Shown here in pieces: positions 825 to 8,100 of a stretch of 34,564 nt of DNA. This DNA comes from Flavobacteriaceae bacterium. Its GTDB lineage: Bacteria; Bacteroidota; Bacteroidia; Flavobacteriales; Flavobacteriaceae. The notes beneath the pieces were generated by a model. It did no database searches. It was not told the origin of the DNA and was given only the letters and a program-made list of their open reading frames with translations. The position numbers and the translations under genes were made by a program. How positions within the stretch are numbered: the first letter of the stretch is position 1; the number at the start of each line of letters is the position of its first letter. The DNA lies in NCBI GenBank assembly GCA_022425505.1, contig JAKMFI010000115.1, positions 1 through 34,564 of the forward strand. Direction: 5' to 3'.

Positions 825-1069
825 TTACAGCTGTCCTTCATCGGCAAAGCTAAAATACGTGTTTTCTGTAATGATGAGGTGGTCTAGGAGCCGGATGTCA
901 AGATTTTTTCCAGCTTTTACAAATTTTTTGGTCAAGGAATGATCCGACTGACTTGGTTTCGGATGACCCGAAGGGTGGTTGTGCGCAAGTATCATGGCAA
1001 CAGCATGTAGTGCAAGTGCTCGCTTAAAGGCAAGTCGCATATCAACTGAAGTTTGCGTAATGCCGCCAC
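825..1069 (-). pseudogene. radC: radC, C-terminal half (JAMM domain), separated by insertion
   Basis: This is the C-terminal half of a RadC/YeeS-family protein. It carries the JAMM/MPN metal-binding signature ILAHNHPSG followed by QSD, and the typical ending ITENTYFSFADEGQL. The frame stays open upstream of the track's Met (1040) through GGITQTSVDM, the conserved RadC segment, and then leaves homology at about 1067 where the inserted DNA begins. The piece has no natural start: the Met at 1040 is internal to the domain. Joining 825-1067 to 2066-2509 gives 687 bases, exactly 229 codons, reading QLSRGGITQT across the join. This shows one ancestral gene. RadC function is poorly defined: the family was long linked to DNA repair, but that role is disputed. 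The stop abuts the start of the deacetylase gene. Confidence 0.88.
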
Positions 1070-1081
1070 CGTAGAGTAATC

Positions 1082-1095
1082 TTTTCCAACCCCAA
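1082..1095 (+). repeat. Left terminal inverted repeat of the radC insert
   Basis: TTTTCCAACCCCAA lies 12 bases inside the left border of the inserted segment. It is the exact reverse complement of 2039-2052. A 14-of-14 match at mirrored positions near both ends of the insert is unlikely to be chance. Confidence 0.8.
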
Positions 1096-1151
1096 TATTC
1101 TTAGGATTTAAGGTTGTATTAGTTCCACTAAAAAATATGTAATTTTACACT

Positions 1152-1700
1152 ATGTCATCTACTTTTTTAAATTCGTGTTTACTTCAGTTTAGATACTACA
1201 AAGAACTAGGTGAAAAAACAATTGAACAAGTACCGGAGATTAAATTGTCATTTCAAATAAATAATGAAACAAATAGTATAAATACGATTGTAAAACACCT
1301 TAGTGGTAATATGGTCTCTAGATGGACAGATTTTTTAATTTCAGATGGAGAAAAAGAATCTAGAAATAGAGATGATGAATTCGAAGACAATATCAAATCT
1401 AAAAAGGAATTGATGGAAATTTGGGAAAAAGGATGGAAGGTTTTGTTTGACACTCTTGAGAAACTTAATTTTCAAGATTTAGAAAAAATTATATACATAA
1501 GGAACGAAGGTCATACAGTAACCGAGTCTATTAATAGACAACTTTGTCATTATTCATACCACGTAGGACAGATAGTAATGATTGGAAAAATCATTTGTGG
1601 AAACAAATGGAACTCGTTATCAATCCCTAAAGGAGAAAGTCAATCCTTCAATATGAAAAAGTTTTCAAAAGAAAGAGACAGAAGACATTTCTTGAAGTAA
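1152..1700 (+). CDS. DUF1572 / DinB-fold protein, cargo of the radC insert
   Basis: This 182-residue protein belongs to the DUF1572 branch of the DinB/YfiT four-helix-bundle superfamily. Recognisable segments are NTIVKHLSGNMVSRWTDFL near residues 45-63, a DGEK..RNRDDEFE segment near 65-80, and LCHYSYHVGQ near 131-140. The histidines at about 49, 133 and 137 occupy the positions expected for the DinB metal site. Members of this superfamily include metal-dependent thiol transferases and many proteins of unknown role, so substrate and reaction cannot be named. It is the only intact gene inside the radC insert and is oriented opposite to radC. Its AT-rich composition and A-rich codons differ from the neighbouring core, which supports acquisition. 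No clear Shine-Dalgarno or TAnnTTTG element was seen upstream. Confidence 0.85.
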   Translation: MSSTFLNSCLLQFRYYKELGEKTIEQVPEIKLSFQINNETNSINTIVKHLSGNMVSRWTDFLISDGEKESRNRDDEFEDNIKSKKELMEIWEKGWKVLFDTLEKLNFQDLEKIIYIRNEGHTVTESINRQLCHYSYHVGQIVMIGKIICGNKWNSLSIPKGESQSFNMKKFSKERDRRHFLK

Positions 1701-1733
1701 TATTTTTAAGGGTTATATACCATTTTTTAGAAC

Positions 1734-2060
1734 TCACTTATATATTCGAATCAATTCAATATCAAAATCTGAATATTCTATAACCTCAGGTTGGTTCAAA
1801 ATCCTTTGTTTTTTCTCTATTTTCTTCCAAATAACAGAAACTAAAGAGGGATAGAAATCTTTTCCCAATGAACTCTTAAATCCTAACCTATTTAATTCTT
1901 TTGAAATACTTCTGTACCCTAACCCTTTGTTTTTAAGTTGAAGGATTTTATTATGTGTTTTTTGATGTGATTTATCTAACTTTCTTCGGTAAACGAATTT
2001 GTTGGTAAGAACACTAAGATTGAATGTTAGAAATGGTGTTGGGGTTGGAAAACCAAAAAC
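1734..2060 (-). pseudogene. Start-less ORF with recombinase-like helix-turn-helix segment
   Basis: This minus-strand frame is open for 108 codons between in-frame TAA TAG stops at the right end of the insert and a TGA at 1734-1736. It has no ATG, GTG or TTG start, so the ORF track missed it. The translation contains KILQLKNKGLGYRSISKEL and LGFKSSLGKDFYPSLVS. This is the pattern I-L..G.GYR.IS..LN..G..S..GK...P..V found in helix-turn-helix regions of Hin/resolvase-type recombinases and in short flavobacterial HTH proteins. It lies on the radC coding strand, just inside the right inverted repeat, and overlaps the fused tail of the radC N-terminal ORF in another frame. It may be the relic of the protein that mobilised the element, or a gene whose 5' part was lost. 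Family assignment is by motif only. Confidence 0.45.
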
Positions 2061-2509
2061 CTATTACGGCTGAGTTGCTCATGGGTAAGGACCGCATGTT
2101 GTTGGTTGAGGTAGATCACCCAAAATTCTTCGTGCTGTAGATTTCCGAGATGAGGTTGGAGAAATTCAAAAACCGATTGACTGCTGCTGAGTTGAATGCG
2201 ATTGAGTGGAGTCTGCTTATGACGGCGCACCAATTCAAAAGCCGCTGCAAGTCGAGTGGCCTTGGCGAGTCCAACTCCATGAAATTCGCACAACTCTTCT
2301 ACACTACATTGTGCCAACCTATCGAGATGATTGTCGTACTGAGCCAACATGCGTTGAGCGAGCATAACCGCAGATTCATTGGGTGTACCTGAACCGAGTA
2401 AAATTGCTAATAATTCGGAGTTAGTTAAGCTTTTATGGCCATATTTCACCAGCTTTTCTCTTGGTCGATCATCGGGAGCCCATCGATTGATGGGAAAACG
2501 TGTACTCAT
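2027..2509 (-). pseudogene. radC: radC, N-terminal half, truncated by insertion
   Basis: This is the N-terminal half of RadC: the start INRWAPDDRPREKLVKYG, then the helix-hairpin-helix-like region around ELCEFHGVGLAKATRLAAAF, then the beginning of the JPD domain, EEFWVIYLNQQHAVLTHEQL. Native sequence ends at the Arg codon at 2066-2068. The last 13 codons (NRFLVFQPQHHF plus stop) are encoded by the insert. The surviving piece therefore lacks the whole JAMM active-site motif, which lies in the fragment at 825-1069. The gene follows mpl on the same strand with a 39-base gap and was probably co-transcribed with it. If both halves are translated they would be separate, probably non-functional polypeptides. 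Confidence 0.88.
2039..2052 (-). repeat. Right terminal inverted repeat of the radC insert
   Basis: TTGGGGTTGGAAAA on the plus strand is the exact complement of the left repeat at 1082-1095. It lies 13 bases inside the right border of the inserted DNA. Confidence 0.8.
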
Positions 2510-7617: not shown

Positions 7618-8100
7618 ATGAAAGTAGCCATCATTATGGGAAGTGCCTCCGACATGCCTGTCATGGAAGGCGCGATTAAAATCTTACAAGATTTTGGTGT
7701 AGAAACACAAGTGGATATCGTTTCTGCTCATCGAACACCATCCTATATGATGCGCTTTGCGACCTCTGCCCACCAAATCGATATCGGCGTAATTATTGCT
7801 GGAGCTGGTGGTGCTGCTCACCTTCCTGGTATGGTCGCTGCTGTAAGTCCTCTTCCTGTAATTGGGGTTCCTGTCAAATCGAGAAATTCGATTGATGGTT
7901 GGGACTCTGTGCTATCGATTTTACAAATGCCAAGTGGTGTTCCCGTGGCGACTGTGGCGTTGAATGGCGCAGAAAATGCTGGGATTCTTGCTGCTCAGAT
8001 TCTTGCAACCACTGATAAAGAGCTCCAAAAAAAAATCGTTGCGTATAAAGATGGGCTTGCTGAAAAAGTAGAGGCATCTCGAAAGGATATCAAATCTTAA
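7618..8100 (+). CDS. purE: N5-carboxyaminoimidazole ribonucleotide mutase
   Basis: Class I PurE of 160 residues, which converts N5-CAIR to CAIR, the step after PurK. Motifs are IIMGSASDMPVMEGA at the N-terminus, VSAHRTPSYM with the conserved His-Arg, and IIAGAGGAAHLPGMVAA, followed by GVPVKS. Length and start (MKVAIIMGS) are standard. Its last four bases overlap the 3' end of the convergent UbiA-like gene at 8097-8100. Confidence 0.96.
   Translation: MKVAIIMGSASDMPVMEGAIKILQDFGVETQVDIVSAHRTPSYMMRFATSAHQIDIGVIIAGAGGAAHLPGMVAAVSPLPVIGVPVKSRNSIDGWDSVLSILQMPSGVPVATVALNGAENAGILAAQILATTDKELQKKIVAYKDGLAEKVEASRKDIKS

Follow-up and report, generated by a model that had tools for sequence, protein, structure and literature searches.

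The 998-bp insert that splits radC in the window (the whole stretch of DNA analysed, 34,564 nucleotides) is best read as a non-autonomous mobile cassette, a member of a Flavobacteriales family anchored at glmS and moved by site-specific recombination at the dinucleotide AC. We give this reading a probability of roughly three in four. The cassette has moved recently, and the copy in radC is an off-site insertion.

radC is encoded on the minus strand and is split into a 5′ part at 2066–2509 and a 3′ part, with the JAB-domain motif HNHPSG, at 825–1067. Joining 1067 to 2066 gives 687 bases in one frame, encoding a single RadC of 228 residues that reads QLSRGGITQT across the join and matches the Pfam families RadC (E = 2e-44) and UPF0758_N (E = 7e-29); this agrees with the preliminary description of the locus. 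An empty site in relatives, proposed there as a check, is found in two genomes of the same genus, where radC is uninterrupted (G008, the closest, with 97% amino acid identity, and G012, with 94%). The empty site of G008 reads GCCGCC-AC-GGCTGAG and the filled site GCCGCC-AC-CGTAGAG...CCTATT-AC-GGCTGAG. The only sequence common to the empty site and both borders of the filled site is the AC (left copy 1068–1069, right copy 2066–2067). The unit, core to core, therefore occupies 1068–2065 and measures 998 bp rather than the ~996 bp first given. The AC had been taken for a possible 2-bp target duplication; it is present at both ends as described, but a reading as the crossover dinucleotide in a site-specific exchange fits better. 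In some other genomes of the genus, radC is frameshifted, contains stops or is recovered in part. In one of these (L025/L027 in G005:C24), a frameshift splits the gene, and loss of radC may thus be tolerated in the genus.

The left AC core is followed by a glmS-like end, CGTAGAGTAATC (1070–1081, plus strand), and by the left inverted arm, TTTTCCAACCCCAA (1082–1095, plus strand). The right arm (2039–2052, minus strand) is a perfect copy of the left and is separated from the right AC core by a spacer (2053–2065, minus strand) that is one base longer than the corresponding spacer of the L231 and L232 copies described below. In L231 the glmS-like end adjoins glmS; placed after the AC of glmS, CGTAGAGTAATC restores the last codons and the stop of that gene. 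The perfect 14-bp subterminal inverted repeat and the AT-richness of the insert (G+C 0.29, as compared to 0.46 for radC) had both been reported correctly. The inverted pair of TTTTCCAACCCCAA occurs once in the whole assembly. An Rfam search of the window and of the element gave no RNA match.

The insert had been credited with a single passenger gene. The plus-strand DUF1572 gene (DinB-like; 1152–1700) matches PF07609 with E = 8.5e-71 and differs from its homologue in the same-genus genome G012 by 12, 13 and 49 changes at codon positions 1, 2 and 3. Beside it lies a second conserved ORF of 99 amino acids with a helix-turn-helix (HTH), which reads inwards from the right cassette end (1737–2033, minus strand) and is the signature of the family. 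This ORF has no ATG or other start codon. Its differences from L234 are distributed 14/3/27 over codon positions 1/2/3, and those among the HTH ORFs of a related group 168/55/394; judged from these alignments, the start-less ORF is under coding selection. Across groups of the family, the coding sequence is kept and a start codon is not conserved. A weak match to the PF07508 'Recombinase' domain (E = 0.002) falls below the cut-off. The AlphaFold2 model (pLDDT 79) predicts a three-helix fold resembling DNA-binding domains; a Foldseek search with this model returned only weak HTH matches, none with E below 0.001; they include Pax-6, Bxb1 on att DNA and a Hsmar1-type domain. Homologues of the DUF1572 gene with 84–86% DNA identity are located outside recognised cassettes (L002/L227 in G012:C16 and L004/L228 in G011:C135), where the neighbouring lipoprotein, GNAT and NTF2-like genes recall the cargo of the arrays.

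A scan of GTDB genomes with the HTH ORF of the window gave four loci. The window cassette itself is found at the end of glmS in Flavobacteriaceae MED604 (L231, 99.0% identical) and as one of three units beside glmS in an uncultured member of the Flavobacteriales (L232, genome G769; 98.8% identical). The glmS genes of these two hosts and of the same-genus G008 are only 68–69% identical to one another at the DNA level. Over 546 bases, the DUF1572 gene of the window shows one difference from L232 and three from L231, as against 74 from the G012 homologue, which sits outside any recognised cassette. Identity of 99% between cassettes whose hosts are so divergent in glmS demonstrates recent horizontal movement between hosts. 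All three copies begin and finish at identical bases, sharing the AC with radC, glmS or a neighbouring cassette. The same ends also carry different cargo: in a Formosa sp. locus (L233), a membrane protein and PadR accompany ends and an HTH gene of the window type, and L232/L264 contains another cassette with window-type ends and other contents. The suggestion of a small mobile unit that lacks a transposase is thus borne out. The glmS gene of the window's genus is free of cassettes wherever it is assembled; in the fragmented assembly of the window's own genome, no clear glmS was found.

In an order-wide search, relatives of the HTH ORF are present in 32 of 398 genomes, some of the matches being weak. 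Distant relatives, found within the window's own taxonomic family as well as across the order, are placed non-randomly beside the 3′ end of glmS, singly or in tandem, with an HTH ORF or an array abutting glmS in 24 Flavobacteriales genomes. The core is ACNGT, within the glmS end that encodes S-V-T-V-E-stop, and can be read on either strand. It precedes 35 of the 36 HTH ORFs (0.2% in shuffled sequence); the one HTH ORF without a canonical core is that of the window, because its flank is radC. Membership of the family was defined by the ACNGT core, the inward HTH ORF and a cargo gene, and not by location at glmS. The window copy, located in radC and not at the glmS 3′ end, has the AC core at both ends together with the HTH ORF and DUF1572, and its counterparts in L231 and L232 have canonical cores at glmS. 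The usual target at the glmS 3′ end, the tandem family and the second ORF that defines it had all escaped the preliminary description.

Cores also border whole arrays, as in G487, where units of 2506, 1997 and 2152 bp lie next to glmS. G450, G769 and MED604 have arrays of three units each, and single units bounded on both sides are found in G100, G304 and G135; the HTH locus of G426 is not at glmS. The cargo of the family comprises a type II restriction–modification pair, an HNH nuclease, the candidate defence protein PDC-S18, PadR, the DinB-like DUF1569, MORN proteins and lipoproteins. A unit holds one or a few cargo genes, and inverted arms are present in many units. In G594 (C1; L266, approximately 7840–7880), the array end keeps a glmS 3′ fragment of roughly 40 bp and the stretch examined has no glmS gene, as if the array and the half-site had moved together. 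The MED604 array has a further HTH variant (L231, 753–1052 and 1909–2208) with about 30% identity to the window ORF; the diversity of the HTH family thus exceeds that of the profile used. No relatives of the window HTH ORF were found in phages, plasmids or IMG/VR, and a scan of viral contigs for the TTTTCCAACCCCAA 14-mer gave only single matches, as expected by chance, and no inverted pairs. We found no description of the glmS cassettes, or of anything like the window unit, in the open-access literature; the family is apparently undescribed, as had been thought possible for the unit.

The crossover lies within the AC. When the two ends of the L231 copy are joined, the AC forms the centre of a dyad in which 19 of 28 positions are paired, 14 of them contiguous, a value reached by none of 20000 shuffles. 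The joined ends of L284, a larger element at the same site (see below), pair at 20 of 28 positions around the AC (2 of 20000 shuffles), those of G100 at 24 of 32 and those of G304 at 23 of 32. The dyad is weak in G135 (7/32) and in a type-B junction (8/32). In the window copy, which has one extra spacer base, it is shifted by one base and 14 of 28 positions pair (184 of 20000 shuffles). Serine recombinases characteristically exchange 2 bp at the centre of a dyad, and an exchange of this kind implies such an enzyme; the AC as dyad centre in several copies points to serine-recombinase chemistry for the cassettes.

Among the ORFs and Pfam matches of the window unit, there is no serine recombinase gene and no transposase. 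The serine recombinase domain PF00239 was not found in G100, G450 and G487, which are 98–99% complete, nor in the genomes of L231 and L232, which have only tyrosine-type recombinases in common. As some nearly complete carriers lack a serine recombinase, the enzyme that moves the cassettes probably acts in trans. Two candidates for a resident enzyme were rejected. One, the L203-type serine recombinase, is present in only 4 of the 32 genomes with HTH ORFs and linked to cassettes in only two. The other, a large serine recombinase close to the G050 array, is not part of the array and is separated from the distal core by several kilobases.

A scan of viral contigs for the glmS end identified three IMG/VR contigs (L284, L301 and L291) with 10–15-kb elements at the exact cassette point of three different glmS genes. 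For the L284 and L301 elements both borders are defined, and serine recombinases lie inside each end. In L301, the AC is followed by element sequence AGTGG on one side and by host sequence TGTCGAG on the other, which places the crossover at the AC. Directly inside the core, L284-type elements have an HTH ORF of roughly 95 amino acids followed by the gene of a small serine recombinase (PF00239, E = 5e-43), the stop of the former overlapping the start of the latter; a large serine recombinase is located at the other end. The profile match between this HTH ORF and that of the cassettes (hhalign E = 1e-4, probability 57%) is suggestive of homology. The elements and the cassettes are linked by their common site, their exchange point and this moderate profile match. 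L284, L301 and L291 also encode DNA methyltransferases and a weakly matching G2P-like replication protein, with a type I restriction system in L291.

We propose that a site-specific recombinase joins both cassette ends at the central AC, which would release a circle, and that this circle would then recombine with a target site, again at AC. Cassettes usually enter the last glmS codons (S-V-T-V-E-stop), which are restored by the incoming end, and repeated insertion would let arrays grow. In the window, the target was GCCGCC-AC-GGCTGAG of radC, with the gene split in two as a result. A serine recombinase is probably supplied in trans by a transient element such as those at glmS in L284, L301 and L291, and the HTH protein would be its DNA-binding partner. 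A wider proposal, to which we give slightly less than an even chance, is that the glmS arrays form a second natural cassette-array system, independent of integrons and built by serine-recombinase exchange at AC. The recombinase would be divided in such a system: the HTH protein of each cassette, possibly translated without a regular start codon, would be its separate DNA-binding subunit, and visiting elements would bring the catalytic one.

The strongest competing explanation is an integron-type cassette, in which a tyrosine integrase (IntI or Xer-like) recombines folded attC-like sites and stacks the cassettes. Arrays of varied cargo without a resident dedicated recombinase fit this explanation, and 19 of the 20 genomes tested have tyrosine recombinases (PF00589, with IntI not separated from Xer). 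However, none of the four joints tested has the paired attC boxes RYYYAAC/GTTRRRY, although a single box stands in one of them, and exchange takes place at the dyad centre with a 2-bp overlap and not at a GTT box, so we regard an integron origin as unlikely. A little less probable again is a non-autonomous transposon, in the form of a MITE that carries a passenger gene, is mobilised by a DDE or DEDD transposase and makes a 2-bp target duplication. It would account for the subterminal inverted repeats, the AT-rich insert and the two bases AC at both ends, but not for the use of the same glmS codons as target throughout 24 genomes, for copies stacked core to core or for the AC at a dyad centre; moreover, the IS110 transposase (DEDD, PF01548) is absent from all 20 genomes tested, with positive controls.

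That the cassette was wrongly joined into radC during assembly is very improbable. The assembly is fragmented (146 contigs, 79% complete) and contains the end pair once, but the two junctions coincide exactly with the ends that the cassette has in two other hosts, and the 2 bp of common sequence at the radC junctions are too short for a misjoin. Least probable of all is a mini Tn7-like element steered to glmS by TnsD/TniQ: Tn7 is known to target the 3′ end of glmS and insertion there is the rule here, but Tn7 inserts downstream of the glmS stop with a 5-bp duplication, as compared to exchange inside the last codons with a 2-bp overlap, and TniQ gave no match in 20 genomes, a weak result since the control genomes were equally silent.

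If the recombination of glmS cassettes at AC is as proposed, cassette-array exchange of genes takes place outside integrons and is common in Flavobacteriales, and it would explain the accessory genes next to glmS. That one cassette has recently moved between distant hosts can be seen directly. The defined target, the crossover point and the candidate enzyme modules make the proposal testable, and the AC site, which is short and defined, also holds interest for use as a recombination tool.

The glmS cassettes resemble several known systems. Like integron arrays and integrase-less CALIN, they are small, mostly one-cargo cassettes that each bring a recombination site and follow one another head to tail at one fixed place in the chromosome, in arrays without an enzyme and with adaptive and defence cargo. 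Unlike integrons, they have a glmS anchor, an HTH ORF in each cassette and a 2-bp overlap exchanged at an AC dyad centre, with neither paired attC boxes nor an integrase beside the array. Tn7 and Tn7-like elements also use the glmS 3′ end; the cassettes differ in having no tns genes that we could find, in exchange within the coding end and in an overlap of 2 bp as against 5 bp. IS110/IS1111 (bridge-RNA recombinases) and IS607 likewise share a two-base core between donor and target; subterminal inverted repeats occur in IS1111, as in the cassette, and IS607 uses a small serine recombinase. The cassettes are set apart from these elements by the lack of an IS110 transposase in the genomes, the strict glmS site, the HTH ORF, the varied cargo and the arrays. 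SCC and other large-serine-recombinase elements integrate by a 2-bp crossover at a conserved gene, whose 3′ end is made good by the incoming end, and are known to form tandem composites, features that the cassettes have in common with them. The cassettes differ in size (about 1–2.5 kb), in their long arrays, in the glmS target and in having an HTH ORF instead of a recombinase gene of their own. The 2-bp crossover at a dyad centre, a trait of serine elements, is seen in the L231 copy, L284, G100 and G304 and is weaker in other members; the window unit, having no serine recombinase gene, could only be a non-autonomous relative of such elements.
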